DNA from: Sipunculus nudus
Taxonomy: Eukaryota; Annelida; Sipuncula; Golfingiida; Sipunculidae
DNA: 64,000 bases
Reading direction: 5' to 3'
Assembly: GCA_026874595.1 (NCBI GenBank)
Contig: CM049306.1
Coordinates: 64,114,019-64,178,018 of the forward strand
Numbering within the stretch: position 1 is the stretch's first letter; each line of letters opens with the position of its first letter. The notes under the pieces were generated by a model that did no database searches, was not told where the DNA came from, and saw only the letters and a list, made by a program, of their open reading frames with translations. Made by a program: the position numbers and the translations under genes. Below, one piece after another: positions 4,423-64,000 of this stretch.

Positions 4423-4686
4423 GTATGACCTGTCAGATGCAAAAAGTCAATGCCAATGAAATTTTGTTTTATTATAATCAAGCGGGGCATCTGATAACTA
4501 GCAATGAAAAGCAAACAAATGTGACCTAGATTTTAAAACCAAAAACAAATAGAAATGAATACTCCTAAGCCTTTGGGCAGTTAATGTTATATAATAGATC
4601 ATGAATGGTTAATTATATTTTTAGCTTTCAATTACTTTTTTAGCTCAGCTGACTATAAGTCATCTGAGCTATAGTCGTGGTCCATT

Positions 4687-4727
4687 GTCCGTCGTCCGTC
4701 CGTCTGTCCGTCCGTCCGTCCGTCCGT
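4687..4727 (+). repeat. GTCC/GTCT microsatellite in A
   Basis: Tetranucleotide repeat GTCY directly after the 5' hairpin. The same position is occupied by a GTCY repeat in A', B, E, F and G copies. Confidence 0.85.
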
Positions 4728-5501
4728 AGATGTGGCACGTTTTGAAACTGTAAGACCTAGGAATCCAAAATTCAGCACAATGTTAGATGTCCCCAAGATC
4801 TCCTACCAAGCCGAAAACTGGGTCTTTGCGACTTCGTTCCTTTGAGAAATTAAAGAAAAACCTCAATTTTTTATTAAAATCCTATTTTCACACTTCAGGA
4901 CTGCCTAATATCAAAACCACTCATCTGTTTTTCCTCATATTTACCATAAATATTCCTCTATATAGTTCCTATGTACATGCCAGAAATTAAGTCTGTAAAG
5001 TATAAATTCTTTAAGTTATTGGCCCAAACATAATGGACTTTGTAAAAAATCAGGAAAAATAATAACTCCCTTAAAATGAAAAATTTTGAAACTAGAGTCT
5101 ATTTTCTCAAGTATATAACTATGTTTAATTAAGATTCAATTGTTTACCCAAAATTAGATATGAATTTTGTAAATTTTTTAAGTTATTAGCATAAAAAAAA
5201 AATTAGTACCTTAAATTTTGCCCAACTTTGACCATGGCACGTTTTTTTCCTGTAAGCACTATTGATTTAATTTTCACAGCATGTAATCATAAATATTTAG
5301 TTTGTCTAAATCTGAAATTTGAATATAAAAGCTTGAAAATTAAGCTAGTTATTGATTTTTTTTTTCTGTAGTCACTTGCTTTGATTACAGATGCAGGGTC
5401 CCACTCCAGGTCACTGGAAGTCAGCTATGCCAGGGTTTCTGATTTGTTACAGTCACTGGGGAAGATCCCCTGCTGTGACTGGTGTAGTTATTCTCATATC
5501 A

Positions 5502-5541
5502 CCCCCCCCCCCCCCAACAACCCCCCCCCCCCCCCCCCCCC
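5502..5541 (+). repeat. Poly-C tracts (14 C and 21 C)
   Basis: C runs at 5502-5515 and 5521-5541 separated by AACAA, inside the 3' half of A. Equivalent C tracts occur in other A copies (9116-9132, 15589-15600, 32231-32244, 58772-58785). Confidence 0.9.
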
Positions 5542-6543
5542 GCAAACCCAACCCATCAAGTGTTATGCAGTAATTGTTATTGTTTCACTGTATCTCCTTA
5601 ATTGTAATGCTGTTTCCACTCCGATATGCAAAAACTTTCCTTGAAAAAATAATTCAAGGTGTAATCCAGAAGATGCAATGTTGTGTAATGTAGCATTTTT
5701 AAAGAAATCAATTTGCTTTTAAATGATTTTAACAAATATAAATGAACCCATCAGTATGCTTAAATTATTATAAAATATGAAGCAATTTATGGATAAATTA
5801 AGACACAATTAAAAATTGTGAAATCTTAATCAAGTATTATTTTTAGATATTTATTGTTTTGCAGATTTAAAAGATATATTTTTGTTGTAAAAAATAAATA
5901 AACATTTGTATGCATGATGTGGTGTTATCTGACAAGATTGAGATTTATGATGATGCAATTGAGAATTATGAATCAACTTATATATTCAGATATATATGTT
6001 AAATTGGAAATGTATAGAAATATAAACTTAAATTAGAAAATAATTGATGTGATAAAAAAATCAGGATTTAATACAAACATTTATTCATTATTTTCCTGCC
6101 TCAGCAGAATTTGAGATCAGGCTTTTTTTTTGCCCTGTTTTATGTTGTTAATTAGCTATATTTCAGCTGTATACATTTCATGAAAAAAATACATATATAA
6201 TTAAAAATATATATTATGCAAAAAAATAGATTCAGTTGAACAAATGTGTAAACTACTGAAATGTCAACAGTAAATTGAAAAACCAACTAATGATCATGGT
6301 AATAGTACAGATCATTTGTTCACAAACTGCTCACATGCTTTAGTTTCAACATAAGGAAACACATGGTCAGGTCACAAAATATTTTTTGCAACAATTTCTT
6401 GCTCATCAATACAAACCAATCATATAAACCAACCATGGCCTTTATTACCTCTTCCTCTTACACTTTATCTCCATTAGATATTATTTTAGATTTTTACCTT
6501 CAAGGTTAACGTCAGCTGACCACAGTGACCCATAGGTCCCTTG

Positions 6544-7362
6544 TTTTTCATTTTTACCAAAAATTTAAGGGCCTGTAATTTTTCTTGCGGGCCTGTGAAA
6601 CCTGTATGCATGTCAGCAGTAGTGCTAATTGTTATAAAATGAAAGTCCATGCTGGTAGTTAAGTTTAAATAAAACACTGGAGTCTCAAGGCCTGTATTTC
6701 GACTGTTTTTTTTGTTTTTTAAACTTTTGCATGAAATGTCATGCACAAATAAGGACTGTAAATTGGCGATGCCATTCAAAATCACATACTGGCTGTCAAA
6801 GGCATCTGCAGAAGGTGAGTGGCATAATCAGGGTAAGTCCAATATATGGGTTTATCTTTAAAATATGTACAGTTTTTCATATATTTGTATAAACATTTTA
6901 TATATTCTACTACCTTATAAGGCATTGACTTTAATTAATAAAGAGTTAATTTATTACCATCCTTCTTAATTATACCTCTTCATTTGCAAAGGAAATCTCA
7001 AATCGCACTCATTCATAAAATTCTGGCACTCCCATACAACACAAAATAAATGAGATATACATCAGTTATAATGCTTCCATGATAACATGCTTGACCATTA
7101 TTGGAAAAGTACTTGATCACTTTTCAAATACGTGAACATTTGACATGTACATGTACAAAGCATATTCTAAAACATTTTGAACCCGAGTACAAGATTTTAA
7201 GCATGTAATAAAACACAAAATCTATTCAGAGATACCTTGTTGTACATGTTGAATGGAATACGGGTATATGTACTATGACATACACCTCACATATGCAAAA
7301 ACCGGTAAAAAAAGGTGTAGTAAACTCGGGATCCTCCTTTTAAAAAAATATTTTTTTCCTCC
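6544..7362. other. No gene identified
   Basis: Low-copy AT-rich sequence. A possible 5' splice site AAG|GTGAGT sits at about 6814-6822 after a short open stretch, but there is no convincing acceptor and the reading frame is uncertain, so I do not call an exon. Confidence 0.4.
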
Positions 7363-8117
7363 CTACCTGATGACTTTTTTGGGACCAATGTTAGCCCAAT
7401 CACAAAAATTTTTAAGGATGGCCTTATCATCTGAACTTGACTGGTCAACAGCCATGGCATGTTCACTTTTCTTTCTTTTAAAGCGTCTTCCTTTACTAGT
7501 TATCTCATTATTGTCCTTAGAATAACATATCTGTGCGATATGGCTTCGTTGATGACACACAGTCTTTAATATAATGTGGACAGTCTGTGGAGTCTAAGTA
7601 CGTTCTTGAAGCTCAACTGCATCTCTAGATGCTGTTTCAATGGCTGCAGCAATCTCAACTGCACGATCAAACATAAGACTTCTTTTGAATGTTCTCATTT
7701 GATTTTGACAAACGACAAACTAATCTGTCCCTCAGTGCTTCATTAAGATTATCAAAGTCACAATACCTTGACAGACATTGCAGTTCAGCGACATAAGCAT
7801 TGACATTTTCAACTTCTTTTTGATCTCTCTTGTGGAAACGGTACCATTTTACAATCACCAGTGGCCGGGGGGCCAAAATTTTCTGTAACGCTTGCGTAAT
7901 GGTTTCCCCATGTCTGTGTTGCCAGTACTTTAGGAGCCAACAAGTTACGTAGTAAATCATAAGGCTTTGACCCAACAGAACTGAGTAAAATAGGTACCTT
8001 TTTATCTTGGTCAATGGAGTTAACACTCATTAACAGTTCAGCACGCTTGACATAAGTATTCCAATTCTCCATATCGGCATTGAAAGGGTCAAGTCTGTCA
8101 ATGTAACAAGCCGCCAT
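7363..8117 (-). pseudogene. gag: Broken Ty3/gypsy gag (capsid to zinc knuckle)
   Basis: Minus strand. Gag would start at the ATG at 8117 (MAACYIDRLDPFNADMENW), a typical gypsy gag opening, and runs through a segment rich in family-like motifs (DQDKKVPILLSSVGSKPYDLL, then in another frame RFHKRDQKEVENVNAYVAEL and ALRDRLVCRL). The next piece, FDRAVEIAAAIETASRDAVEL, is shifted again near 7673, and a zinc-knuckle remnant (CHQRSHIAQIC) follows at about 7520-7560 with the first cysteine spacing shortened. At least two frameshifts make it non-functional. Gag packages element RNA in cytoplasmic particles. No pol follows, so this is a gag-only fragment. The minus strand at about 8225-8245 (TGGCAACGACAGAGG) could be the old primer site. 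The assignment to gypsy gag is by recognition of family motifs. Confidence 0.8.
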
Positions 8118-8550
8118 CTTGTTGTGCGCTCCGGTGTCACCGCACTGAAAAAACACTTTGTTACAGAACAAACCCGCAAAGTTCACAATAAAAATCAGTC
8201 CCAAAAGACACAGCAGGTCATCTGTGACTGAACTTTTCCTCTGTCGTTGCCAGAAATGTTGGTTTTCATACATACAGCCCTAACATACATTGGTGCAAAC
8301 TCATAGACAACTGGCATCAACAGAACTATACTTTATATATTCGTCCACCAGTGCCCCATGACCCTGGGTATCTGAACATCATACAAAATAGTGCATCCAA
8401 TTTCCATAAATATTCGAGTTCACCGTAAATACACTAAAATATAAATTGTATACCCAAAATTAGATCTGAATTTTGTAAATTATTTAAGGTATTAGCATAA
8501 AAATAAGATTATGTACCTTTATGTACTTATGTACTGGGACATTAGTTTTT
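8118..8550. other. Gag leader remnant and A-derived scrap
   Basis: 8118-8330 is probably the leader of the gag fragment. 8437-8515 matches the interior of family A (TACCCAAAATTAGATCTGAA type sequence). No gene. Confidence 0.4.
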
Positions 8551-9963: not shown

Positions 9964-10152
9964 TCAGATAGATGCTCCAAAACCAATCCCAACTGAGGTA
10001 TGCATGAGAGCAATCACTGATCCAAATTTGAATGAAATCAGATAAAATTTAGGAATGTTATCGCACAGATAACGAAAAAACCTGAGAGACAGACAGAGGG
10101 ACAGACAGACAAACCCAAATCGATCTCCCCTGCTTCTGCAGAGCAGGGGACA
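9964..10152 (-). mobile_element. Family F rolling-circle-like repeat, 5' fragment
   Basis: Read on the minus strand it begins TGTCCCCTGCT with a perfect 9-bp stem (TCCCCTGCT / AGCAGGGGA, 10126-10150), then a GTCTGTCTGTCY repeat (about 10083-10112), then a core with the 'ATAAC...CAAATTTGG' logic of the other families. Its start cuts into a gag remnant. No 3' terminus was found. Confidence 0.5.
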
Positions 10153-10428
10153 AAAATTGCAAGTCTTTGACAGTTCAATGAGTTTGACTAATAATGAGAG
10201 CTCATCAAATTTCCATATGATCCCACAGTCTTCCGTTGAATGGAAACTAAGACTGATAAATATACAGATTCCTTTAGTGCCAGTACAGTGGAGAGACATG
10301 TCACACTGATAAGCAATGTCTTTCTTATCAAGTTCAACCAGCTGTTTGTATATTAAAAACTGCTGCTTAAAAATAAGCCATTCATCCTGGGGTTTATCAG
10401 AAAGTTTGAGCAGGGAAGGCGGACTCAC
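10153..10428 (-). pseudogene. gag: Ty3/gypsy gag N-terminal remnant
   Basis: The minus-strand ORF from 10428 opens with LLKLSDKPQDEWLIFKQQF and VELDKKDIAYQ and continues with a LHCTGTKG...SFHSTED...WKFDE pattern, which is typical of another gypsy gag subfamily (a capsid helix region that tallies with 'KWFKQQFEIY' and 'LLHxIG' blocks). After about 75 residues the family resemblance ends, and the ORF runs on through the F element, so the ORF's C-terminal part is an artefact. Non-functional. Confidence 0.65.
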
Positions 10429-12160
10429 ATGAACTCTGTGTCTGATGCCAGCACCGGGTTGGTTGCTGCTATCTTGGTCGCTCTGCCTCTCATACTGATA
10501 TGTCCACCAGCAGCTAAGTTATTCCAGATCAGAAATACACAGACACAAGTGTGACAGTCCATATAAACAACAGGATTCAGTTGAACCGCTGCCACCATGT
10601 ACAGATCAGACAAGACTCAGACAGCCATCTGAGATCAGTGTATTGAAGCGACACCTGGTGTACAAGAGTGAACTAATAACATAATATTTGCACATTATTA
10701 TCATTACCTTGTGCCCTGTGAGATTTCAGTAATATTAATTTTAACATGAAAGCAAGGGCTTCCCAGAACCAATAAGGTTGTTGACTTTGTGAGGGGATCT
10801 ACGATGTATGCTATCCTGGCCCCTGCCATATATTTGTGTGGGTAATCTTTGTAGCTACTGACCGGTGATTACTATATGAGGCCACCTGTCATATATGGTA
10901 TGACAGCAGTCCCCTGATCAGCTAATACATTTGCGTAGGGTTTCCTGGAAGCTGGTAGCTACCCAAGGAGACCAATGATGTGTGGTATACTCTAAGTCCC
11001 CTGCTAAACTAACACAAACATTGAGACTTTCTCCACTGCTACTATAACCAATGTGATAATTTTACGATAATTCAAATTATTATATTTTACCAATTGTCAT
11101 TAGATATTATAAGGTGATCAGTCCTATGGAATGAAACAGGTATTTAGCAGAATTGTGTGCAGGATAACTTTCTAATTACAATTCAGTTTATTATTTAACT
11201 GCCAGCTCTTTGATAAGTGTTCACAGAGAATTCATTAATAAATAGATAGATAGATAGATAGATATATTTTATTCACAATAACAACACATTCAGATCACAA
11301 TAAAATGAATAAATATAAAAATACATATATCTAAAAAAAATATATTCATAAAATCTGCAAGTGTAAAAAGCCATGAAAAAGGAGCACTTAAATGTAACCC
11401 TACATATACGTGTTCATACATTTGACTGGGTTTACTCTTAAAGTGACAGGCACAGATAAACTAATTAATTAACAGTTTAGACATAGATGTTCACAGGAGG
11501 GCAAGAAAGGTGTTTAATGTATTACACATTATGTCTTGTATTTATGCTGTAAGAAATTCCTAAATTGCAATTATTATTTTGGACAAATGTGTAAATAGAT
11601 ATACTGGTTACTGAACCAGAGAGTTAATGTCAGAGCTATAGAGAGGAGAGTACAATAGTTAGAGAGCCAAGATAGAGAGAGAAGATAGGAATAAGGACAG
11701 AGAGAAGAGATGCCAGAAACAGATAAGTGGAAAATAAGGCAAACTATCTGTGTATATTTTGGACATTTGTTATTTTTAAATTTGCCTGAATAAACTTGGA
11801 AGTAAGTTACTCCTGGACTTAAGAATTTGAGAAAATCAACAGCCTGTGAACTAAGGCACTTAAACGACTTGCTGGTGATACTACCAACTACTAACCCTCT
11901 TGCACCTGATATGGCAGCTTGGGTTGTATGAATGAACAGGCCCGAAAGACCAGGAAGGCAAAGTCAGATGAGACTGACACCATCAGTGATATCAGACTAT
12001 AAAAACCCTCACCTTTTACTAAAAGCTACCTGAGGGCCCTTGTTGTAAGAGGTATCCCAATAACCCCAAACTCAGTTGTGAAGCAATTGGCAAGTTGCAA
12101 GCAATTGGCAAGTTGCTTAAATAACTTCCTGACAAAATATCTGTTCATATCTCAATGTGA
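10429..12160. other. No gene identified
   Basis: Low-copy sequence with a weak, diverged tandem pattern at about 10790-11030, a TAGA microsatellite at 11243 and GA-rich stretches at about 11640-11710. I see no exon, RNA gene or transposon ends. Confidence 0.4.
11243..11264 (+). repeat. TAGA microsatellite
   Basis: Five perfect TAGA units plus TA. Confidence 0.9.
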
Positions 12161-12668: not shown

Positions 12669-15600
12669 AGCAAACCTGTAAGCTTATGCAATGGCGTAGC
12701 GTCGTCTGTTGTCCTTTTGCTGTCAGCCATCATCTGTACGTTAACCAATGCTCTCTCAAAAACCATTTGACCTAGCATCATCAAATTTTATGCAAAAAAT
12801 TAGTCATCCAAAAAACTCTATCAAATTTTGGTTATTTTTTTGCTATCTGCATGCATTTACTTAGATGTTATAAGGGAAATGCTAAAAAAAACTTTTCAAA
12901 ATCTTCTTCTCTGAAAATGTCCTGCCAGATTTTTCACTTATTCACAGAAATAATCTCTGAAACAATCTCTCTCAGGTTTGCTCGATTGGTTATAGTTTGC
13001 TGAATTTTGGCTGAGTTAAAGGAACCTGAGCTTGGTCATTTGGCCTAAAAAGGGTACTAAGATAACAATTTCAGAAATGGCTGGAGCAGTCTTCACCAAA
13101 TTTTATATAATTGTTGGTCACGTGACTCATAAATGAATTTGAGGTATTGGTGGCGCCACCTGCATCAACCTTTTCCGACGAGGGTCATCGGTCATTAGTG
13201 CATTTGCCCATAATTTCTCGGGATTAGCAGGACCTAGAACCCCAAAATTTATGCAGAAATCTGTCGCATATCAAATGTTGTTGGATTGAGTGTCTTGTGG
13301 TTCTACCTGCATTAACTAAAATTTCACCGAGAAAAAGCTACAAACAAACCCAGAAAATCTTCTTCTTTGAAACCATTCAGCCAAATGGTTCAATATTTCA
13401 CAGAAAATGATACCAGAGATAAGCTCTCAGGTTTGTTCAAATGGTTTGGGTTTGATGAATTTTGGTGGAGTTACAGGAATTTGAACATAGTGAATTCTCC
13501 AAGTAAGCATACTGACATAAAAATCTCAGAATCGACTGGAGCAAGCATCACCAAATTTTATGCAAATGTTGGTCACATGACTCATATTTGAATTTATATT
13601 GACCTATTTTTAGCTCAGCTGAGCTATAGTCGTGGTCCATTGTCTGTCGTCTGTCCGTCCGTCCGTCTGTCATGCCGTCCGTCCGTAGATGTGGCACGTT
13701 TTGAAACCGTAAGACTTAGGAATCCAAAATTCGGCATAATGTTAGATGTCCTCAAGATCTCCTACCAAGCCGAAAACTGGGTCTTTGCGACTTCGTTCAA
13801 TTAAGGACAATTAAGGAAAAACCTCAATTTTTTATTAAAAACCTATTTTCACACTTCAGGACTGCCTAATATCAAAACGACTCATCTGTTTTTCCTCATA
13901 TTTACCATAAATATTCCTCTATATAGTTCCTATGTATATGCCAGAAATTATGTCTGTATTATATAATTTAAAAAAGTTATGGGCCCAAACATAATGCATT
14001 TGGTAAAAAATCAGGAAAGATATTTGATCACTTAACACAAAACATGTTAAAGCTATGGACTTTTTTCCAGTAATATAACTTTAATTAACCAATTAAATTG
14101 TATACCCAAAATTAGATTAAAATCTTTTAAATTTTTTAAAATGTTAACAAAAATAAAAAATTGGTACCTTAAATTTAGCCCAACTTTGACCATGGCACGT
14201 TTTTTTCCTGTAAGTACTGTGGATTTAATTTTCACAGCATGTTTTTGTTAGCATTTTGTCTGTTAACACCAAAAATTTGAAACCAGTTGATCAAAAACTG
14301 TAGATTTTATTCAAGTTTTCAAACACCATGTAACATATTGTTTACATCAAGCTAGTGTTATGCAGTTTGCAAGAGCTCAGCTCCCCAGCTTCAGCTCTCA
14401 GTTCCTAAAATTTGGCATACAATTAGATATCTCCAAAATCCCCTACCATGCCAAGAATTTGGTCACTAGGACTTAATACTTTCGAGATATTAATGAAAAA
14501 CTTCATTTATCCATTAAAAACCCATTGTTACACTTCAAGACTGCCTAATATCAAAACCACTGCTCTGACTTTAATCATATATAATATACATATTTTTCTA
14601 TACATTCTCTATGCACATGCCAGAAATGATGTCAGTATTGCGTAATTGTTTTAAGTTATGGGCCCAAACATAATGCACTTTGTAAAAAAAAAAAAAAAAT
14701 ATTTACTCCCTTAACAAGGAGATTGCTGAAGCTAGAGATTTTTAGCTCAGCTGACTATAAGTCATCTGAGCTATAGTAGTGGTCCTTTGTCCGTCGTCCG
14801 GCCATCCGGCCGTCCGGCCGTTAACAGGGCACGTTTTAAAACGGTTAGACCTACGAATCCAAAATTCTGCATACCAATAGATGTCCCCAAAATCTCCTAC
14901 CATACCGAAAATTGGGTCATAAGGACTTTGTTCCTTTGAGATATTAAGGAAAAACCTCTGTTTTCCATAAAAAAGCCATTGTTACACTTCAAGGCTGCCT
15001 AATATCAAAACCACTAATCTGTTTTTGATCATATTTATATTCACATTTTTTCATACATTTTCTATGAACATACCAAAAATTAGGTCAGTATTGGATATTA
15101 TTTTGAATTTATGGGCCAAAATATAATACAATTTTTAAAAAATCAGGAAATATATTTACTCACCTAACATGAGAATTGCTGAACCTAGAGACTTTTTTTC
15201 AGGAGTATAACTTTATTTAATCAAGATTCAATTGGTTACCCAAAATTAGATCTGAATTTTGCAAATTTTTCAAGTTATTAGCATAAATAAAAAATCAATA
15301 CCTTAAATTTTGACCAACTTTGGCAATGGCACGTCTTTTCCCTGTAAGCACTGTTGATTTAATTTTCACAGAATATATACATAAGGATTTAATCTTTTAA
15401 AATCTGAAATTTCAAAGAAATTGATTGGAAAGAATAGCTTTTATTCACGTTTTCATACACCATGTCAAGTGTTGTTTACATCTAGCCCACCTAGTAGTAC
15501 AGCCTTCACTTGCATTATGTAACCCACCCCAGGCAGCTTGCCTTGGTTCAGCTTGGCCACTACCAGCAGGCTTCCCCTCTGCCCTGTACCCCCCCCCCCC

Positions 15601-17585
15601 TTCCCCTCCCCCAGATGGTGCATTAACTAAATGAATGTTATAATTTTCTGTATTTTATTCATTCTTATTCTTGGCTATGCTACATTTTAGATTTTGTAGT
15701 GGACCACCAGTGTTACAATGATTAAAATGCACATTTAATTGTGTCCACAAAGTGGTGTATTGCTATGAAAATGTGGATATTCATTAGATATGTAATTACC
15801 TTCTTCAGAAGAGTAAAAACTTCACCAGGTGGGAAATTAACTATTAATTCAAGAAATAAATTATAGCTGAGATAGTAATTCTAAGCACAATGATATTGTT
15901 TGTCCCTCATTCTACCAACAGTGTCTATACTTTATTTGAAAAGATGTTTTTATTTTATCAAATTTACTGAATCTTTTATTTCAGTGAATAAAAGTAAGCA
16001 TGTACTGAAAACTCCAATGGGCAAAACTTTTTAATAGTGATTCGAGGAATAATCTTGAAGATGCCATGTTTTGGCATTATTTTCTTTTAAATTCAGTTTA
16101 AACATATGTGATTTAAAAATAATAAAATGTATGTGTATGCATAATATGACCCAATATGAGCTACACTCTGGATATATAATGATTGCAACTTAGAATTCTG
16201 ATATTTTAACTTATATTTTCAGATTTTTTTATTACAAATTTATTAAAACTTTTAAATAAAAACAGTGAATCGGGTACAAACTGTTAATGAAAAAAGTGGA
16301 TATGCTTAAAAAATAGGCTTATATATAAACTTAAATGCATTGTTCCCTTAGAAGTGAAACAAAGGTATTAGTCCATTCTGTTCACTTACCTGTCCAACTG
16401 TAAATTTTTCATATGCATCACAGTATCTGAAAACTTTTACTGTTTTTCTTTATGACAGTCTTGTCAGATTATTAGTTTTGCAATCATATATTTAGAACTT
16501 TACTGTAACCAAGTAGGAGGGCTCCTTTCCTCTTAGCTTGTCATATGCTTATATATATGAAAAACATTACCATAGAATTTTTGCATATTTTGCATTTGCA
16601 AAAATTTCAAACTTCAGCTGAGCACCGAGACCAATGGGGCCCTTGTTTTTCACAAGTATTATCCTAGAACATGGTTCTCTCAATTGTATAAGAATAGATT
16701 TGGTTTGTTGATTTTTGGTAGAGTCAAAGAAAGCTGAATTTGGGCTTGTGGCAAATAATAAGCCTATTTTAAACTGAGAACTGCAATAGTCTTCTTCTGC
16801 AAAACTGTTGTTTCAGCTTCTGTAACATTGTACTAAAACAAATTCTTAGGCCATTGTTCAATTTTACTTAAATGATTGTTGGCAGAATAATTGGACCTTT
16901 AACAATGAAAGGACTACATCTTTAGTTATTTTAAACATTTCAATAAAAATATCTAATGGATATGTTAGCTTGAAAAAAAAGCATTAAAGCCAAAGTCTTT
17001 CAGCATGTGTAAACAGATTAACCAACAGGCCAAGATTGTGTCTGTATCTATAAATAGCTTTGCAGCATGTCAACTATTTAAAATTTGGCAACAGGCCAAA
17101 AGTCACTCTGGATCTGTTTATAGCTTTGGTAGACCGCCAAATGTCAGATTATGCAACAGGTCAAGAGTTCACTAAGTGCAGTAGCTTGAGCCAGCAATTT
17201 GACACAGTTCACTCAGGACAACTGCCTTTCTCATCTTAGACTTGTCAGCCCAGTGCATCAAACTCAAGAGAAGTTTGATTTATTAGCCTGATATTTAAAC
17301 CTGTGTATACGTCTTTGATGGCTTTCTCATTCACAAAACTGGTGTCGCCACCTACAATGACTTTTGCTCAGTGTATGTGCCTGCTTCTTTCTCAAGAGGG
17401 ATATGAAATCCTCCTGAAAACGGGTATATTTATACATATCAGATAGCTTTGTTGAATACAAGACTGGTGGTGCCACCTACAATATTTTTTGCACAGTGTA
17501 TGTCCCTGCTTATTTCTCAGGATGGGTTTGATATATCAGCCTGAAATTGGGCATATGTATACATCTTAGATAGCTTCATCATATG
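12669..17585 (+). mobile_element. Family B repeat interrupted by A
   Basis: Starts AGCAAACCTGTAAGCTTATGC (family B start AGCGAACCTGTGAGC), then the B core with LTR-free tandem units and the palindrome GGTGGCGCCACC at 13149-13160. The A composite 13612-16645 interrupts it inside a T-run, and B sequence resumes at 16646 (TTTCACAAGTATTATCC, compare ATTTCACAGAAATGATCCC in other B copies). At 17586 it changes abruptly into A' core, so this copy has no B 3' end. Confidence 0.6.
13612..16645 (+). mobile_element. Family A composite with a second internal 5' end
   Basis: An A start (hairpin arm shortened: GCTCAGCTGAGCTATAG) leads into two core units. A second, complete A start with hairpin and GTCC/GGCC repeat follows at 14744, then a core unit, a C tract (15589-15600) and a degenerate 3' end (GCTGAGCACCGAGACCAATGG...CCCTTG) at 16645. 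It is either a nested insertion with loss of the outer 3' end or an end duplicated within the element. Confidence 0.6.
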
Positions 17586-20933: not shown

Positions 20934-21306
20934 GTAACCAACACAAACACATGTATTCATACACATGGGATGCTTATAGAACATGCTAAGTGGCAATCTT
21001 CCTGGCCAGTTTAGAAAGTGATTAGAGTCCTCCTTCTTGCACACTCCTGAGATAAATGGCTGGATAAATGCCCTAAAGAAATAGGCTTTGATATAAAGTG
21101 GGTCATTCTATATAGTATGCACTTTTTGAAAAATTCATTTTGCCTCTTTTTTACGTTCCTTGAAACATTGTTGCATCCCCTTGGTGTGTCCTTCTGTCCA
21201 TCTGTCTGTAATACTGACTCTTTTTGGCATTTAAGTCAAACCATTTGACCAAAACCTTTCTTCTTTCACATATGGCTCACTGATCCATCAAGAGAGATTC
21301 ATTTTT
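20934..21306. other. No gene identified
   Basis: Low-copy sequence, presumably intron if the neighbouring exon is real. Contains a CACACATG-rich stretch around 20940-20965 only. Confidence 0.35.
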
Positions 21307-41026: not shown

Positions 41027-41032
41027 TTTTTT

Positions 41033-50921: not shown

Positions 50922-53481
50922 AGCTCAGCTGACTGTAAGTCATCTGAGCTATAGCGATCACTCTTTGTCCGTCGTCCGTATGTCTGTCTGTCCGTCTGTC
51001 CCTCTGTCCGTCTGTCCGTTAACCTGGCACAAATCGTAACCGCTGGACCTAGAATCTTGTAACTTGACATTCTGAGAGGTCCATGAAAAATCTCCTTGAA
51101 AACCAGAAATCAGGTCTCTGTTACCCATATCCTTCAAGCTATGGGGGCCCAAAGTACCCCCCAGAATAGTAACAAATTTCATACAAAATCGTCAACATCT
51201 CATTAACTACAACACTGATGGTCATGATTTTTTGCGTACATATTGATCATGAGATGTTCCATTAGTTCCTGCAGACTGGTGGCGCCACCTGTATTTTTCG
51301 ATTTTTTACGAATTTTTTTCTCTATTTTTGAGAACTTTAAAAATGTGGACATCTGTTAACAGGGCACAAATCGTAAAGACTGGACCTAGAATCTTCATTC
51401 CTGACATTCTGAGAGACCTATGAAAAGTCTCCATGGAAACTAGAAATTAGGTCTCTATTACCCATATCCTTCAAGCTATGGGGCCCCAAAGTACTCCCCA
51501 GAATAGTGAAAAATTTCATACAAAAACTTCAATATCTCATTAACTACATCACTGATGGTCATGATTTTTGGCATACATATTAATCATGCGATGTTTCATC
51601 AGTTTCTGCAGACTGGTGGCTCAACCTATATTTTTCGATTTTTTACGAATTTTTTTCTCTATTTTTGAGACCTTTAAAACTGTGGACATCTGTTAACAGG
51701 GCACAAATCGTTAAGACTGGATTTAGAAGCTTTATTCTTGACATTCTGAGAGACCTATGAAAAGTCTCCATGGAAACCAAAAATTAGGTCTCTGTTACCC
51801 ATATCCTTCGAGCTATGAGGCCCCAAAGTACCCCCCAGAATAGTGAAAAATTTCATACAAAAACTTCAATATCTCATTAACTACATCACTGATGGTCATG
51901 ATTTTTGGCATACATATTAATCATAAGATGTTTCATCAGTTTCTGCAGACTGCGGACGCCATCTGTATTTTTTCGATTTTTTTACGATTTTTTTCTCTAT
52001 TTTTGAGACCTTAAAAGATGCAGTCATCTGTTAACAGGGCACAAATCATAACAACTGGACCTAGAATCTTCATTTTTGACATTGGGGGAGGCCCATGAAA
52101 AGTCTCCTTGGAAACCTGGAATTAGGTCTCTGTTACCCAGATTCTTCAAGCTATGGGGCTCTGAAGTACCCCTGCTGAATAATGAAAATTTGATACAAAA
52201 ACTGAAATATCTGAACAACTAATGCATTGATTACCATGGTTCTTTGCATGGATATTGATCATGGAGTGTTTCATAGGTTTCTGCAGACTGGTGGCGCCAC
52301 CTGTATTTTTCGATTCTTTACAAATTTTTTTCACTATTTTTGAGACCTTTAAAGATATGAACATCTGTTAACAGGGCACAAATCATAACAACTGGACCTA
52401 GAATCTTCATTCTTGACACACTGAGAGACCCATGAAAAGTCTCCATGGAAACCTGAAATTAGGTCTCTGTTACCCATATCTTTCATGCTGTAGGGCCCCA
52501 AAGTACCCCCCAGAATAGTCAAAAATTTCATACAAAGAGATCATGAGATGTTTCATCAGTTTCTGCAGACTCCCTAGAAACCTGGAATTAGGTCTCTGTT
52601 ACCTATATTCTTCAAGCTATGGGGCTTGTTACACATTTTTACAATTTTTTTTCTCTATTTTTAAGACCTTTAAGGATGTGTTTATGTGTCAACAGGGTAC
52701 AAATTGTAACAACTGGACCTAGAATCTTCATTCTTGTCATGCAAGGAGGCCCATGAAAAGTGTCTGTGGAAACCTTAAATTAGTTCTCTGTTTCCCATAT
52801 CCTTCAAGCTATAGGACTCCGAAGTATCCCTCAGAATAATGGACAATTTGATACAAAAGCTGAAGTATCTGACCAACTAATGCAGAGGTCACCATGATTC
52901 TTTACATGCCTATTGATTATGGAGTGTTTCATCAGTTTTTTCAGACTTATGGTGCAACCTATATTTTATTAAATTTTTTTGAAGTTTTTTCTCTATTTTT
53001 GGGACCTTTAAGGATGCTGTCATCTGTTAACATGGCACAAATTGTAACAACTGGACCTAGAATCTTCATTCTTGTCATGCAAGGAGGCCCGTGAGAGTGG
53101 AAATCTGAAATTAGGTCTCTGTTACCCATATCCTTCACGCTATAGGACTCCGAAGTATCCCTCAGAATAATGGAAAATTTGATTCAAAAGCTGAAGTATC
53201 TGAACAATTAATGCAGAAATCACTATGATTCTTTGCATGGATGATGACCATTAAGTGTTTTTATTAGTTTCTGCAGACTGGTGGAACCACCTGTATTTTT
53301 TTTAAAGTTTACGCATTTTTTCTCATATTTTGAGATATATAAATTCAGAAACAATCTTGGCTTATTCTTTAATCTGTTTGATGCTTCAGTTGAATGGGTA
53401 TATACTACCATTCAGATGATAAAATTTCCTTTTGCAAATCTCTTCCCAGTCAGCTGAGCGTCATGACCCATGGGTCACTTG
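50922..53481 (+). mobile_element. Family A' repeat, full length, nested in A
   Basis: A-type hairpin (AGCTCAGCTGACTGTAAG...), GTCTGTCC repeat, GTTAAC, then core units of about 336 bp with the palindrome (51280, 51614 degenerate, 51950 degenerate, 52290) and shorter later units. 3' end AGTCAGCTGAGCGTCATGAC...CACTTG. 2560 bp. The start GCTCAGCTGACT and its 3' inverse AGTCAGCTGAGC match over 12 bp. Confidence 0.85.
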
Positions 53482-54187
53482 TTTTATTAAAATCCTATTT
53501 TCACATTTCAGGACTGGCTAATATCAAAACCACTCATCTGTTTTTCCTCGTATTTACCATAAATATTCCTCTTTATAGTTCATATGTACATGCCAGAAAT
53601 TAAGTCTGTTTAGTATAAATTCTTTAAGTTATGGGCCAAAACATAATGGACTTTGTAAAAAATCAGGAAAAATATTTACTCACTTAACATAAAAATGTTG
53701 AAACTAGAGTCAATTTCCCAAGTGTTTAACTATGTTTAATTAAGATTCAATTGTTTACCCAAAATTAGATCTGAATTTTGTAAATTTTTTAAGTTATTAG
53801 CATAAAAATGAAATCAGTACCTTAAATTTTGCCCAACTTTGACCATGGCATGTTTTTTTCCTGTAAGTACGATTGATTTAATTTTCACAGCAAGTAAACA
53901 TGAATATTTAATTTGTTTAAATCTGAAATTTGAAAATAAAAGCTTGAAAATTAAGCTAGTTATTGATTTTTTCTTGAGGCTCTATTGTTGTCATTTGCTT
54001 TGATTACAGATTACAGATGCAGGGTCCCACTCCAGGTCACTGGAAGTCAGCTATGCCAGGGTTTCTGATTTGTTACAGTCACTGAGGGAGATCCCCTGCT
54101 GTAACAGGTGTACAGTTATTCTCATATCACCACCCCAATCCCCCCCCACTCACGCAAACCCGACCCACCAAGTGTTATGCAGTAATT

Positions 54188-55645
54188 AGGGCCCCGCTTG
54201 ACAAGCGGGTGCCCTATAGTGATCACCGTGTCAGTCCGTCCTTCCGTCCATCCATTCTTCCGTCCTTCTGTCAGTGACACTTTCTTTCACACGTGATAAC
54301 TCAACAACAATATACTGCAGCTTTCCCAAATTCACAGGGATGATTGGTACCTATAAGGGCTCCAGACCTGTTGAATTACAGACTTGTCAGAATTAAATAT
54401 GGCCGCCACAGCCCGATTGCTGATTTTCTTTCGCACACAATAACTCAACAACAACATACTGCAGCTTTCCTAAATTCACAGGGTTGATTGGCACCTATGA
54501 GGGCTCCAGACCTATCGAATTACAGACTTGTCAGAATTCCAATATGGCCGCCACAGCCCTATCCCTGATTTTCTTTCACACGCTGTAACTCAACAACAAC
54601 ATACTGCAGCTTTCCCAAATTCACAGGGTTGATTGGTACTTATGAGGGCTCCTGACCTGTTGAATTACAGACTTGTTGAAATTCCAATATGGCTGCAACA
54701 GCCCAATTGCTGATTTTCTTTCGTGCACGATTACTCAACAACAACATACTGCAGCTTTCCAAAATGCACAGGGAGGTTTGGTACCTATGAGCACTCTAGA
54801 CCTATCAAATTACAGACTTATTGGAATTCCAATATGGCCGCCACTGCCCAATTGCTGATTTTCTTTCGTGCACGATTACTCAACAACAACATACTGCAGC
54901 TTTCCCAAATGCACAGGGAGGTTTGGTACCTATGAGCACTCTAGACCTATCAAATAACAGACTTGTCGTAATTCCAATATGGCTAAAACAGCCAAATTGC
55001 TGATTTTCTTTCGTGCGCAATAACTCAACAACAACATACTGCAGCTTTCCCAAATTCACAGGGTTGATTGGAACCTATGAGGGCTCCATACCTATCTAAT
55101 TACAGTCTTGTCAGAATTACAATATGGCCGCAACAGCCAAATCACTGATTTTCTTTTGTGCACGATAACTCAACAACAACATACTGCAGCTTTCCCAAAT
55201 TCACAGGGATGATTGGTACCTATAAGGGCTCCAGACCTTTTGAATAACAGACTTGTTGGAATTCAAATATGGCCACCACAGCCAAATCACTGATTTTCTT
55301 TTGCGCGCGATAACTCAACAACAACATACTGCAGCTTTCCCAAATTCACAGGGATGATTGGTACCTATAAGGGCTCCAGACCTATTGAATTTCAGACTGG
55401 CTCAAAATCAAATATGGCTAACAGATAACATTCGTTGATTTTTATATTGCACACATTATTTCAGACATATCTTCTTTAATATCATTTGATCCAGTAGGTT
55501 TTTTTCCCTCATGCATATGGATAAAAACGTGTTTCTGTTTGTCATATTTTTTCAAATTTAACTTAATTTTTCACCCACATTTAAACTAGTCCAGCACTTG
55601 CAGAAAAGCGGGGCCCTCTGAGGACCATTGTCCGACCACACCTAG
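54188..55645 (+). mobile_element. Family G rolling-circle-like repeat, complete, nested in A
   Basis: Starts AGGGCCCCGC; hairpin GGGC-CCCGCTTG-a-CAAGCGGG-t-GCCC. GTCC/TTCC repeat at about 54234-54275, eight core units of about 145 bp, then GCGGGGCCCT (55608-55617), the exact inverse of the first ten bases, a GGAC/GTCC stem, and CTAG at 55642-55645. The empty site in A at 5560-5580 reads GCAGTAATTGTTATTG; here it is GCAGTAATT | element | TTGTTATTG. This is the best-defined element in the window. Confidence 0.9.
54277..55434 (+). repeat. 145-bp tandem units in G
   Basis: TGATTTTCTTT recurs at 54421, 54565, 54711, 54856, 55001, 55146 and 55291 (steps of 144-146). Each unit has CTCAACAACAACATACTGCAG and an AATATGGCCGCCACAGC-like end. 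Confidence 0.9.
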
Positions 55646-56893
55646 TTGTTATTGTTTTCACTCTATCTCCTTTACTGTAATACTGTTTCCACTCTGATAT
55701 GCAAAATCTTTCCTTGAAAAAGTAATTCAAGGTTTAATCCAGAAGATGCAATATGTGTAATGTAGCATTTTTAAAGAAATAAATTTTCTTTTAAATGATT
55801 TTAACAAATATAATTGAACCCATCAGTATGCTTAAATTATTATAAAATATGAAGCACATTATGGATAAATAAAGACACAATTAAAAATTGTGAAATCTAA
55901 ATCAAGTATTATTTTTAGATATTTATTTGTTTTGCAGATTTAAAAGATATATTTTTGTGGTAAAAAATAAATAAACATTTGTATGCATGATGTGGTGTTA
56001 CCTGACAAGATTGAGATTTATGATGATGCAATTAAGAATTATGAATCAACTTTTGTATTCAGATATATATGTTATATTGGAAATGTATAGAAATATAAAC
56101 TTAAATTTAAAAAAAATGATGTGATAAAAAATGAGGATTTAATACAAACATTTGTTCATTATTTTCCTGCCTCAGCAGAATTTGAGATCATGCTTTGTTT
56201 GCCATGTTTTATGTTGTTAATTAGTTATATTTAAAAAAAAAATACATATATATTTAATAATATATATTATACAAAAAAATAGATTCAATTGAACAAATGT
56301 GTAAACTACTGGAATGTCAACAGTTAATCAAAAACCCAACTAATGGACATGGTAATAGTACAGATCATTCATGAACCTGCTCACATGCTTCAGTTTCAAC
56401 ATTAGGAAAAACATGGTCAGGTCACAAAATATTATTTGCAACAATTTCTTGCTCATCAATACAAACCAATCATATAAACCAACCATGGCCTTTATTACCT
56501 CTTCCTCTTACACTTTATCTCCATTTGATATTATTTTAGATTTTTACCTACAAGGTCAACGTCAGCTGAGCACAGTGACCCATGGGTCCCTTGTTTCAAG
56601 GTCACAGCAGCGATTATGCTAAAATGATATTAGGGCAATAACTCAAAAATGCATTTTGATGCATTTTTCAAGGTCACAGAGGCAATAACACTGAAATGAT
56701 GTTAACTTTAATATCTCACTGAGGGATGCATGGATTGGTCCAAAAATCAAATTGACATAAGATCTTTGATAGCATTGTTTTCTGTAGAAGACAGGTGGCG
56801 CCACCTTATGTTGTTTTCTTGCTAAAATGAAAATGCTAAATGGGTTAATTGTCAAGGGATACTATGGCACCTGCGGTGCCAAGAAATATCTAG

Positions 56894-59198: not shown

Positions 59199-59585
59199 TT
59201 TCCCACTCTGCCAGAAATATAATGGGTGAAAACTGAAGGTTCCTTTTGTTCAATCTCTGTCACAAATAAAAAGGGAAAAGATTGAAGGTGCCCTAGGTTT
59301 AAGCTCTGCCAGAAAAATGTGAAGATTATGGTGCCCTTTGTACAAGCACTGCCAGAAATATAACAGGGGTGGATCTAGAATTTAGTAAAAGGAGAGGTCA
59401 GACCCAGGAGGACTAAAGACAAAAGTCCCCAGGTCCAGAAAAAGTGGGCCCAGGCCATACAAAGAGAAAATTATCTGAAACCCTTAAGAAAGGTTGCAGT
59501 GTCTGAAAAATGATGTATATGAAACCCCTGGACCCTCCCCATCTGCTTCTGTATAAAGTGTGAAAACAAAAGGTGCCCTTTGTCC
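59199..59585 (+). repeat. Degenerate left edge of the 49-bp satellite
   Basis: Diverged units of the form CTCTGCCAGAAATATAA..GTGAAAACTGAAGGTTCC, interrupted by the MITE at 59364-59551. Confidence 0.65.
59364..59551 (+). mobile_element. 188-bp MITE inside the satellite
   Basis: Ends CAGGGGTGGAT and, inverted, CAGAAGCAGAT differ only by transitions. TATAA is duplicated on both sides (the left copy is part of the satellite's AAATATAA). Internal blocks match 12356-12547. Confidence 0.55.
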
Positions 59586-61496
59586 AAGCTGTGCAATAAA
59601 TATAAATGGTTAAAACTGAAGCTGCCTTATGTTCAAGCTGTGCAATAAATATAAATGGTTAAAACTGAAGCTGCCTTATGTTCAAGCTGTGCAATAAATA
59701 TAAATGGTTAAAACTGAAGCTGCCTTATGTTCAAGCTGTGCAATAAATATAAATGGTTAAAACTGAAGCTGCCTTATGTCCAAGCTGTGCAATAAATATA
59801 AATGGTTAAAACTGAAGCTGCCTTATGTCCAAGCTGTGCAATAAATATAAATGGTTAAAACTGAAGCTGCCTTATGTCCAAGCTGTGCAATAAATATAAA
59901 TGGTTAAAACTGAAGCTGCCTTATGTTCAAGCTGTGCAATAAATATAAATGGTTAAAACTGAAGCTGCCTTATGTCCAAGCTGTGCAATAAATATAAATG
60001 GTTAAAACTGAAGCTGCCTTATGTCCAAGCTGTGCCAGAAATATAAATGGTTAAAACTGAAGCTGCCTTATGTCCAAGCTGTGCCAGAAATATAAATGGT
60101 TAAAACTGAAGCTGCCTTATGTCCAAGCTGTGCAATAAATATAAATGGTTAAAACTGAAGCTGCCTTATGTTCAAGCTGTGCAATAAATATAAATGGTTA
60201 AAACTGAAGCTGCCTTATGTTCAAGCTGTGCAATAAATATAAATGGTTAAAACTGAAGCTGCCTTATGTCCAAGCTGTGCAATAAATATAAATGGTTAAA
60301 ACTGAAGCTGCCTTATGTCCAAGCTGTGCCAGAAATATAAATGGTTAAAACTGAAGCTGCCTTATGTTCAAGCTGTGCCAGAAATATAAATGGTTAAAAC
60401 TGAAGCTGCCTTATGTCCAAGCTGTGCCAGAAATATAAATGGTTAAAACTGAAGCTGCCTTATGTCCAAGCTGTGCCAGAAATATAAATGGTTAAAACTG
60501 AAGCTGCCTTATGTTCAAGCTGTGCCAGAAATATAAATGGTTAAAACTGAAGCTGCCTTATGTCCAAGCTGTGCCAGAAATATAAATGGTTAAAACTGAA
60601 GCTGCCTTATGTCCAAGCTGTGCCAGAAATATAAATGGTTAAAACTGAAGCTGCCTTATGTCCAAGCTGTGCCAGAAATATAAATGGTTAAAACTGAAGC
60701 TGCCTTATGTCCAAGCTGTGCCAGAAATATAAATGGTTAAAACTGAAGCTGCCTTATGTTCAAGCTGTGCCAGAAATATAAATGGTTAAAACTGAAGCTG
60801 CCTTATGTCCAAGCTGTGCCAGAAATATAAATGGTTAAAACTGAAGCTGCCTTATGTTCAAGCTGTGCCAGAAATATAAATGGTTAAAACTGAAGCTGCC
60901 TTATGTCCAAGCTGTGCCAGAAATATAAATGGTTAAAACTGAAGCTGCCTTATGTTCAAGCTGTGCCAGAAATATAAATGGTTAAAACTGAAGCTGCCTT
61001 ATGTCCAAGCTGTGCCAGAAATATAAATGGTTAAAACTGAAGCTGCCTTATGTTCAAGCTGTGCCAGAAATATAAATGGTACAAACTGAAGCTGTCTTAT
61101 GTTCAAGATGTGCCAGAAATATGAATGGTAAAAACTGAAGCTGCCTTATGTTCAAGATGTGCCAGAAATATAAATTGTAAAAACTGAAGCTGTCTTATGT
61201 TCAAGCTGTGCCAGAAATATAAATGGTACAAACTGAAGCTGTCTTATGTTCAAGATGTGCCAGAAATATGAATGGTAAAAACTGAAGCTGCCTTATGTTC
61301 AAGATGTGCCAGAAATATAAATTGTAAAAACTGAAGCTGCCCTATGTTCAAGCTGTGCCAGAAATATAAATGGTAAAAACTGAAGCTGTCTTATGTTCAA
61401 GATGTGCCAGAAATATAAATGGTAAAAACTGAAGCTGTCTTATGTTCAAGATGTCCAATAAATATAAATGGTTAAAACTGAAGCTGCCTTATGTTC
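59586..61496 (+). repeat. 49-bp satellite, 39 units
   Basis: Unit AAGCTGTGCCAGAAATATAA...CTGAAGCTGCCTTATGTYC, exactly 49 bp in all 39 copies with no indel (59586 + 39 x 49 = 61497). Two main variants (TGCAATAAAT versus TGCCAGAAAT, and TCC versus TTC endings) alternate in blocks; 61056-61202 and 61203-61349 form a three-unit higher-order repeat. Because 49 is not a multiple of three and the unit has TAA and TGA, no frame stays open; it is non-coding. Confidence 0.95.
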
Positions 61497-62590
61497 AAGC
61501 TGTGAAAGAACTATCCGTTGTGAAAACTGAAGATGCTCTTTGTTAAAACTCCACCTGAAATATCAGTAGTGAAAACTGAAGATGCCTTTTGTTAAAGTTC
61601 TGGAAAATGTCTGTGGTAAATGCTGAAGGTACCTTTTCTTTAAATTCCACTTGAAATGTCATTGGTGAGCACTGAAGGTGTGCTTTTTTCACACACTACC
61701 ATATATGTCAGTGGTGAAAACTAAAGACGCCCATTGTCGTAGCTCTGCCAGAAGAGTCAGTGGTGAAAACTGAAGCTGCCTTTTTTTCCAAGCTGTGCCA
61801 GGAGGTAAATGGTGAAAACTGAAGGTGCCCTTTGTTCAAGCTCTGGAAAATGTCAGTGGTAAATGCTGAAGGTGCCCTTTGTTCAAACTCAACCTGAAAT
61901 GTCAGTGTTGTAAACTGAAGGTGCCTTTTGTTCAAACTCTACCAGAAATGTTAATGGTAAAAACTGAAGGTGCCCTTTGTTCAAGCTGTGCAAGAACTAT
62001 ATCAGTGGGGAAAACTGAAGGGGCCCTTTGCTATAGCTCTGGAAAATGTCAGTGGTAAATGCTGAAGATACCCTTTGTTCAAACTCCACCTGAAAAGTCA
62101 TTGGTGAGCACTGAAGGTGTGCTTTGATCACACTCTACCTAAATGTCAGTGGTGAAAACTAAGTGGTGAAAACTAAAGACGCCCTTTGTAATAGCTTTAG
62201 AAAATTTCAGTGGTAAAAAGCTGAAGGTGCCCTTTGTTCAAACTCCACCTGAAATGTCATTGTGAGCACTGAAAGTGTGCTTTGTACAAACACTACCAAA
62301 ATTATAAATGGTGAAAACTGGAGATGTCCTTTGTTGCACCTCTGCCAGATATGGTAATGGTGACAACAGTACTGCCAGAAATGTAAATTTTGAAAACTGA
62401 AGGTGCCCATTTTTCAAGCTCCACTGAAGATGTAAATTAAAAAAAAAAATGTCATTTGTTGTGAAACTTCCAGCAAAACCGTGTTGTTTTGCTCTGATGC
62501 CTACCAAAAATCTTTTAAACTGAAGTCTATCATATATATTAGTTTTGCTCTGATGCCTACCAAAATAAATAATTTTTCAAATCTTTAGAA
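61497..62590 (+). repeat. Degenerate right edge of the satellite
   Basis: Units drift in length and sequence (CCACCTGAAATGTCATTGG, GAGCACTGAAGGTGTGC, and so on). At the end a 24-bp direct repeat GTTTTGCTCTGATGCCTACC(AAAA) occurs at about 62486 and 62542. Confidence 0.7.
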
Positions 62591-62602
62591 TTGTAGTCTT
62601 GT

Positions 62603-62605
<3 letters not shown>

Positions 62606-62665
<60 letters not shown>
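62606..62665. repeat. TA microsatellite
   Basis: About 30 TA units with one AA interruption. The minus-strand ORF with repeated YI residues here is an artefact. Confidence 0.95.
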
Positions 62666-62666
<1 letters not shown>

Positions 62667-63308
62667 CAATGTGGGGTTTGGGATGTCCCCACCTGTATCA
62701 CAAGCAGGTACTGGTACAGGTTGCTGACTCTTCAACAGCAAGCAATCTGGGACAGTCTCTCTGCTGAGAGAATTGCCCAGTCTCTCTCTCAAAATGCACA
62801 CTACAAAGTTTTGATACAGAGCTGTCACGTGACATATGAGACATACATATCCATTGTTCTGCATTTCATCATAATTATTGGATGACCCTTGGTTAGACCA
62901 TTGATAGAAGCTGCTATTGGATTAGATGGTAATGGTGACCTGACATTTGATATAATTATGCATATCATCAGTTTACATAAGACTTTATTGACCTGACATA
63001 CATCCAGTTTTAGACTGACCTCAGTCTTATTTCCAGACACCTATTAACATGGTCATACCAACTCATCATGCAGTTAAAGCCCATTATGAAAGCTGCAATA
63101 AGGCTATATTAACATATCTGAATTATCATTGGATACTTGGTCATCTGATGACCATTAATACTTTGGCTCTGTCTGAATATCAGAGCAGACTGAAACCAAA
63201 ATTGATCTTTATTTGTTCCTGAAGTAATTTTAGATTTTAAAATGAAATATTGAAACATTCCTTAAATATATATAGTGTCACAAATACACCCTTTCCTACT
63301 CTATAACA
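62664..63308 (-). repeat. Old solo LTR related to the 45-4422 element
   Basis: Matches the LTR in order: TGGGATGTCCCCACCTGTATCAC, GGGACAGTCTCTCT, TACAGAGCTGTCACGTGACATATGAGA (in part), CTGACATACATCCAGTT and the end CCTACTCTATAACA. Many substitutions and a deletion of about 135 bp; no internal region follows. Confidence 0.7.
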
Positions 63309-63414
63309 ATATTTATATATATATATATGTGTAAACCCTGAAGTCTTCATTATTTATTATCTAGTCTTTTCTCAATAAACAATGCTGGCAATGAACTTAA
63401 CATTAGAAATAATT

Positions 63415-64000
63415 GTATCCGCCAAAACAAAGTTTTGCGGATACTATGTTTTTGACCGGGTTCCGCCGCCGCGGCGTTCGTTTCCGGAGAACTCCTCTGA
63501 GACTACTGGACAGATTTTTCCGAAACTTACACAAATTATCGGGTCACATGTGAACTGGTGCCTAACTAAGTGACCTTGACCTCTGACCTTTCTTCTCTGC
63601 CCAGCGTCCGTTTGTGCGTCTGTTTCCACACATAAACCCACATATCTCGGGAACCGTTTGATCGATCAGGAAAAAAATTTTACACAAATGTAGCCCTGGG
63701 ATAGCTTTATAACATACACAAAAAAAGGTGGCGCCACCTGCAACCATGTTTGCACAGTGTCCATCTGTTTGTCTGCCTTGGGTTAAAATCACTCATATCT
63801 CTGCAGTAGTTTGACTAATTCACCTAAAATTCGGCATGCGTATACATCCTAGATAGCTCTCTTGATTTTATGACAGGTGGCGCCACCTTCATTCACGTTA
63901 ACGCTGCAGACATCCAAGCTCATATCTTGGGAACCGTATGACCAATCAGGAAAAAAATTTTACACAAATGTAGCCCTTAGATAGCTTTATAACATACAAA
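63415..64000 (+). mobile_element. Family D repeat, 5' part, runs off the window
   Basis: Starts GTATCCGCCAAAACAAAG; hairpin TATCCGCCAAAAC / GTTTTGCGGATA. CCG repeat, then the D core with palindromes at about 63727 and 63875. It is better preserved than the copy at 45499. Confidence 0.75.
63571..63589 (-). promoter_or_regulatory. AGGTCA triple half-site in D
   Basis: TGACCT-TGACCT-C-TGACCT; on the minus strand AGGTCA-G-AGGTCA-AGGTCA, the same layout as in family C. Confidence 0.4.

Follow-up and report, generated by a model that had tools for sequence, protein, structure and literature searches.

Probable non-autonomous Helentrons in a 64-kb segment of the Sipunculus nudus genome: several families with an irregular 5' hairpin and a single prevailing orientation

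Repeats of the window

The window, as the whole 64,000-bp stretch analysed here is called, comprises positions 64,114,019-64,178,018 (+ strand) of contig C1 (CM049306.1) of the sipunculan Sipunculus nudus, whose genome is assembled in 1,426,538,692 bases and 153 contigs. A repeat library of nine pieces taken from the window itself (A, A', B, C, D, E, F, G and K; Table 1) spans 34,313 of its 64,000 bases. These repeats are very probably non-autonomous Helentrons (HINEs) of several sequence families, which would move by the folded-end, T|T-inserting mechanism proposed below. The assignment is supported by a 5' subterminal inverted repeat (subTIR) with a local inverted repeat, a microsatellite, a core, a 3' subTIR, a palindrome, and insertion at T|T with no longer duplication; it is also supported by a layout that equals that of the published Cg_HINE and DINE-1 elements. 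The full set of ends is found only in A/A', C, E and G; F is represented by its 5' part only. The original prediction had seen eight families replicated by one Helentron-type Rep-helicase that reads structure more than sequence. End anatomy, insertion sites and published layout agree with its assignment to Helentrons, and its repeats and motifs are real; it is a good reading of known elements, in which the family count and the single-enzyme claim are too strong. A and A', whose ends are common to both, are one family. The design of the ends is already in print, and the families of the window are further examples of it; the new parts are an irregular hairpin common to the families and the local co-orientation of neighbouring elements.

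Anatomy of the ends

At the 5' start lies a tag specific to the family (X, 10-13 nt), followed, where a hairpin forms, by a local imperfect inverse of X and, near the 3' end, by a near-perfect or perfect one; starts and inverse copies lie at the places that had been described. A and A' have a common start, and C, E, F and G each have their own, though GTATCC is common to C and F. There are 11 A 5' ends on the + strand, plus one with a shortened hairpin (13625); the A end in general we take to resemble repeats of oysters. When one copy per family is folded as single-stranded DNA and scored against shuffles, the 5' ends of A, C, E, F and G form hairpins (z = -5.6, -2.6, -5.2, -6.3 and -6.2, respectively). 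Directly after the hairpin comes the predicted GTCY or CCG microsatellite, present in most copies of these five families and lacking from the C copy at 28122.

The geometry of the hairpin, written out for 18 5' ends of the five families, is that of an interrupted stem. In A/A' and E, 8 pairs are followed by a 1x1 mismatch, in which C faces either T or C, and 5 further pairs; F has 8 pairs, a single C bulge and 5 pairs, C has 7 pairs, a CA bulge and 3 pairs, and G has 6 pairs, a single T bulge on the 3' side and 7 pairs. The loop is of 3 nt in every family. Five 5' hairpins that are unrelated in sequence have in common, then, one irregularity 6-8 pairs above the base of the stem and a 3-nt loop. 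The stem is closed by a box, TATAG in A, E and G and TATG in C and F, which is missing there at 42624, 45499 and 49584; every pair is intact in 13 of the 18 ends. Perfect 7-bp hairpins of the window with loops of 3-12 nt show no preference for a loop of 3 (23 of 317), so that chance is unlikely to account for a 3-nt loop in each of the five families, unless it was inherited.

The 3' inverse of the 5' start matches in 9-11 of 11 letters in A/A', 13 of 13 in both copies of C, 11 of 11 in E and 10 of 10 in G; in B the figure is 10 or 11 of 11, according to which 5' copy is paired with the single 3' copy. These inverses had been described as perfect, and those of both C copies, E and G are; among complete copies only one of five A and one of two A' elements conform. 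In complete copies the 3' inverse restores base pairing with X at the irregular place: a G does so in 7 of 7 A/A' elements, and the inverses of C, E and G are full. A palindrome follows the subTIR in A, C, E and G. Inverse and palindrome end in CTAG (C, E, G, one A') or CTTG and then TT; the 12 A-type ends comprise 10 with CTTG, one with CTAG and one, of the K copy ending at 33797, with CTGA, and TT follows in 11 of them. Tandem cores, predicted with units of about 145, 178, 279 or 336 bp, are present in A', C, D, E, F and G; the reference copy of A has none, and other A copies repeat a long internal unit. D and F had been said to show only 5' features. The 5' hairpin of F is as described, a 3' end and an inverse of F were searched for in the window and not found, and the ends of D were not located. 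The coincidence of element ends with hairpins and inverse copies was assessed within the window.

Insertion sites

Nesting allows the same host sequence to be read filled and empty. Both flanks can be read at six insertions, namely one of G and two of A' into A, one each of C and A into B, and one of A into a tandem array, and all six are at T|T with no duplication beyond TT: target duplications, which would have spoken for cut-and-paste transposition, were looked for, and the predicted T-T insertion was found. At G in A the host AATTG becomes AATT-element-TTG, and at C in B AATTATC becomes AATT-element-TTATC; the other four sites are T runs, to which the insertion adds 2-4 Ts in all. For two further insertions into A, one of an A element (14743) and one of a B element (41264), the reading covers only the left side.

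These sites bear on an older classification. Miniature inverted-repeat transposable elements (MITEs), moving by cut-and-paste with terminal inverted repeats, are likewise non-coding and have inverted copies at their ends, and DINE-1-like elements were once annotated as MITEs (PMC4067079). In the window, however, the 3' inverse is subterminal, the palindrome and CTAG/CTTG come after it, and the six filled and empty sites lack any longer duplication; a MITE origin is highly improbable. The canonical Helitron (Helitron1: 5'-TC, 3'-CTRR, insertion at A|T) was also considered and set aside: X starts with GC, GT, AT or AG, the sites are T|T, and CTTG occupies 10 of the 12 A-type 3' ends, although the CTAG of C, E and G would fit CTRR.

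Several observations weigh against the assignment to HINEs. The 5' end of B, where the original prediction had noted that a hairpin was not obvious, forms none when folded like the others (z = +0.28), and the single B 3' end has CTAG followed by A instead of T, an exception to the predicted CTAG/CTTG-then-T ending that C, E, G and nearly all A-type ends display. Pairs are broken in 5 of the 18 5' hairpins (one at 28739 and at 49584, two at 36671, four each at 28529 and 45499), and the inverse of A is often imperfect. The short 3' hairpin of the prediction exists as a palindrome in four families, but it folds clearly better than shuffles only in C (z = -3.2); for A, A', E, G and B the z values are -1.2 to -0.1. 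At the G and C sites, finally, a 2-bp TT duplication would look the same as terminal Ts carried by the element.

Helitrons have been described next to or within one another, and those of maize are reported to favour insertion close to other Helitrons (PMC2267711, PMC3288121, PMC5148889). In the window one place, about position 235 of A (4866-4872 in the reference copy), behind a weak hairpin and a T run, took A' twice and B once (28736, 50918 and 41258); the two A' elements there could be one old composite. A hairpin before a T run was tried as a general target and rejected: a strong hairpin precedes 3.2% of T runs on one strand and 3.4% on the other, the score did not rank this hotspot high, and other targets have no hairpin by eye.

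Copies in the genome and coding content

The exact 5' hairpin of C occurs 695 times in the genome (348 forward, 347 reverse), that of E 2,399 times (1203 and 1196) and that of G 18 times (11 and 7); the same patterns read backwards give 0 in each case. (GTCY)5 has 36,715 forward and 36,249 reverse matches and its control 3,922 and 3,192, overlapping matches being counted. A Pfam search of the 12 longest stop-to-stop frames of the window (10 at E 0.1, 2 at E 0.001) found no Rep or helicase domain. The peptide encoded at 19726-20286 (-) has an integrase zinc-binding match (E 0.0014, below its cut-off) and a weak RNase H match, and looks like a Ty3/gypsy remnant. Rfam and tRNA scans each gave 0, viral and prokaryote sequence collections held no match to the end patterns, and of 28 papers containing one of the literal end motifs, none among the 20 listed is, judged by title and abstract, about these repeats.

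Orientation of neighbouring elements

All 271 library matches in the window, many of them overlapping matches of tandem units, are on the + strand; by hand count they represent about 35 insertions, and sign tests, which take these as independent, overstate the bias. A family-blind structural scan gives the same picture: 17 5' matches (14 judged to be ends) and 8 3' matches (6 judged to be ends) on +, none on -, as compared with 0-3 per strand in six Markov simulations. When the window is compared with itself, inverted matches are 2 of 772. The sole exception in orientation found in the window is a candidate 5' end on the - strand (10110-10160), whose 7-nt loop places it outside the 3-nt-loop pattern. 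The supply of T runs was rejected as the cause: runs of at least 5 number 285 for T and 296 for A in the window, which is balanced.

Beyond the window, 36 stretches of the genome were compared with the library, 33 chosen by position and three (L009-L011) placed on GTCY runs. Library matches occur in 17 of the 33, and in all 17 they are on a single strand; of the three others two are single-stranded in this sense and L011 is mixed. In the 9 position-picked stretches with at least two family groups, the 36 pairs of families all agree, and so do 37 of 37 once L011 is included by its majority; the pairs are not independent because the cores of D and F cross-match. Agreement over distance was measured with listed exact ends of E and C, in listings that show both strands nearly to their ends; the GTCY-run listing was excluded because it is without reverse matches that are present in L011 and L013. 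Among the 100 E ends on C1 listed of 2,399, the ratio of same to opposite pairs is 12:0 below 20 kb, 19:2 at 20-50 kb, 11:4 at 50-100 kb and 17:17 at 100-200 kb; consecutive ends less than 50 kb apart are 26 same and 2 opposite, which 0 of 20,000 shuffles reached, and consecutive ends 0.5-5 Mb apart lean to opposite (6:18). Among the 100 C ends listed of 695, the ratio is 7:0 below 50 kb (3:0 minus the neighbourhood of the window), 6:2 at 50-100 kb, 14:4 at 100-200 kb (5:4 minus that neighbourhood), 14:6 at 200-500 kb and 20:24 at 0.5-1 Mb; consecutive ends less than 300 kb apart are 22:7, reached by 91 of 20,000 shuffles. Between E ends, strand agreement is strong up to about 50 kb and absent beyond about 100 kb, a scale at which the direction of replication forks over megabases, another candidate, is not needed.

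Agreement between families is a different matter. Pairs of E with C among the listed ends are 3:0 below 20 kb, 0:1 at 20-50 kb, 2:8 at 50-100 kb and otherwise about even, and the nearest E to each C is 2:1 below 50 kb, 1:7 at 50-100 kb and 2:6 at 100-300 kb, which counts against broad domains that extend across families. The case for agreement across families comes from the window, from the stretches and from three pairs of E with C; the cross-family data beyond 50 kb are against it.

A larger pattern was followed and given up. The C1 stretches with library matches (L009-L034) are on - in the left half (one mixed) and on + in the right half, with 39 - and 4 + clusters on the left and 0 - and 12 + on the right, which suggested a polarity of chromosome arms. 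Such a rule is obeyed by 1,621 of 1,716 library matches (same arm, 849 same and 46 opposite; opposite arms, 772 opposite and 49 same), as compared with 53 of 76 in a non-library control (22 and 11; 31 and 12) that is not clean, because matches are not independent and some of its rows were judged to be unlisted parts of HINEs. The listed exact C ends refute it (16 + and 22 - below 62 Mb and again 16 + and 22 - above, by hand count), and it is also broken by GTCY runs that have no library match, of which L030 (80 Mb) has two on - and L026 (60 Mb) one on +. We take the pattern of the stretches to reflect few samples and local domains; it remains odd.

What might generate local co-orientation? Duplication, or composites moving as units, would do so without any directed insertion: direct copies would stay co-oriented, and the shuffle tests take every copy as separate. 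Two A elements that each hold an A' at the same A position would fit, and so would L011, which looks like an inverted local duplication: in its segment 4687-9942 (C1 about 216.7-221.9 kb), A and K pieces run both ways. Set against this are the many different flanks and host sites, the unrelated families, the agreement in all 9 multi-family stretches picked by position, and the divergence of the A copies, which are 72-94% alike; among 7 of them the first 235 bp show 6-28% difference, so that the co-orientation was built up over time. Duplication is on balance a somewhat unlikely source. Selection in introns or transcription units that tolerate one direction would suit the scale, since about 50-100 kb could fit large genes, and three retroelement-like peptides of the window all lie on - (one with weak Pfam support); the near-complete agreement is, however, stronger than we would expect of selection acting on non-coding elements. 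We regard selection of this kind as unlikely. A further suggestion is of local strand-controlled insertion: over domains of about 50-100 kb, HINE families unrelated to one another would insert almost only one way, Rep joining the strand into one exposed strand (at a replication gap or an earlier element) and reading the irregular 3-nt-loop hairpin, not the sequence. In this specific form it is a tentative and rather doubtful proposal.

No report of local co-orientation of Helitrons or Helentrons was met in the literature searched, as far as titles, abstracts and partial texts go; the statement that oyster HINEs occur in both orientations genome-wide (PMC7492417) does not contradict a local effect.

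A proposed mechanism

A Helentron Rep-helicase encoded elsewhere would bind the folded 5' end as single-stranded DNA, nick at T|T, and peel or copy the strand up to the 3' palindrome. The palindrome would serve as terminator, and the strand would then be joined into another T|T. Pairing of X with its 3' inverse may mark the two ends of one element. New elements would settle preferentially within or close to older ones and point the same way, which would generate nests, whether through targeting, replication or selection. We infer the nicking, the peeling and joining and the role of the palindrome from the layout of the ends. For the Helitron Helraiser a hairpin is called the terminator, although its right end is not strictly required (PMC5876387).

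One hairpin shape carried by unrelated sequences suggests an enzyme family that would read shape, loop and irregularity, and this common geometry speaks for a common type of enzyme. The matching tag that each family has at both ends would equally suit family-specific enzymes. There might be several Helentron Reps, each reading its own X as sequence, with the shape inherited from one ancestor. Each family does keep its own X at both ends, and PMC4067079 gives >95% and 98% as the sequence that non-autonomous elements of mosquito and flies have in common with the partner Helentron; but the irregular stem and 3-nt loop recur in five families whose stems are unrelated (C and F having in common the start already mentioned). 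Several sequence-reading Reps are a serious alternative, with a likelihood a little below even. The reading of shape is suggested by analogy with TnpA-REP, one group of which requires a bulge in the stem (PMC8266576). The authors of the oyster study could not link ten autonomous Repbase Helentrons to Cg_HINEs (PMC7492417).

Relation to known systems

The Cg_HINEs of Crassostrea gigas (PMC7492417), set beside the window elements by layout, have a subTIR, a local inverted repeat, a microsatellite (GTCY in several), a 3' subTIR with palindrome, a tandem core mostly of 140-180 bp, T-rich insertion with no target duplication, and unrelated families side by side; as to differences, they are described as occurring in both orientations genome-wide, and the sections available mention neither local co-orientation nor stem irregularity. 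DINE-1/HINE elements and autonomous Helentrons (PMC4067079) share the subTIR, an inverted repeat nested in the 5' subTIR, the 3' stem-loop, TT insertion and variable terminal Ts, but partners with Rep, helicase and endonuclease are known there. Fusarium FoHeli/Helitron2 elements (PMC5148889) have asymmetric inverted repeats and a 3-nt GAA hairpin loop (FoHeli1 and 2), and nested self-insertion is discussed for them; they differ in being autonomous, in a shorter 5' hairpin and in the insertion of FoHeli1 and 2 between TNAT and T. IS200/IS605 and REP hairpins (PMC8266576, PMC5371812) are irregular and read as single strands, and the orientation of IS608 relatives follows replication (same sources); these bacterial elements are unrelated, and the likeness is one of analogy only.

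A shape rule kept while sequence changes would, if true, provide a model of how Helentron Reps recognize their substrates that can be put to the test. If true, the co-orientation of neighbouring but unrelated families would constitute a genomic record of the strand that these transposons enter. Which strand eukaryotic rolling-circle elements enter is, to our knowledge, an open question. If co-orientation stems from duplication or from selection in introns, it calls for caution on the part of annotators of nested repeats.

Other features of the window

Table 1. Repeats and element ends located in the window (window coordinates)
Feature	Position	Strand	Remarks
A element, complete, reference copy	4638-6543 (or 4637-6545)	+	GTCC microsatellite 4687-4727; 3' subTIR 6511-6521, CTTG then TT
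Possible further HINE 5' end	10110-10160	-	hairpin after T run, 7-nt loop, then GTCY
A element inside another A copy	14740-16645	+	left boundary read; right flank without match
A' element without recognised 5' end	17586-19449	+	3' end CTAG
B element, 5' end 21302	21302-24773	+	interrupted by C, probably D; sole recognised B 3' end 24724-24773
C element in B	22078-23303	+	empty site about 42013-42026
A element inside B	25436-27582	+	empty sites at about 41404 and 21468
A element carrying A' (28736-31604)	28526-33010	+	adjoins C fragment 28119-28528
E element, complete	38436-39612	+	180-bp core x 5.8
K repeat, A-type 3' end	40236-41026	+	5' end not found; A element directly after, at TT
B element in A (41028-41262)	41258-42620	+	A position about 235; left side read
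C element, complete	42624-44653	+	288/145-bp core
D repeat, left neighbour of F copy at 45499	44695-45498	+	end positions not located
F second copy	from 45499, following D sequence	+	278-bp core 45802-47119
A element inside 146-bp tandem array	50688-56593	+	holds A' (50918-53481) and G (54187-55645)
A' element with tandem core of 336-bp units	50918-53481	+	host A, interrupted at about library position 235
G element, 145-bp core x 7.9, in A	54187-55645	+	empty site 5571-5575
F element, 5' part (runs to window end)	63415-64000	+	

Besides these repeats, the window contains peptides at 19726-20286, 7670-8279 and 9967-10518 that look retroelement-like by eye, all on - and opposite to the HINEs; the Pfam support mentioned above is for the first only. 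Direct repeats of ~780 bp at 45-823 and 3641-4422, with starts 3.6 kb apart, are 98.9% identical and resemble long terminal repeats or other terminal repeats; a related piece lies at 62731-62874. A 49-bp satellite of 50 copies (59552-62001) stands shortly 3' of the A-type 3' end at 59200.

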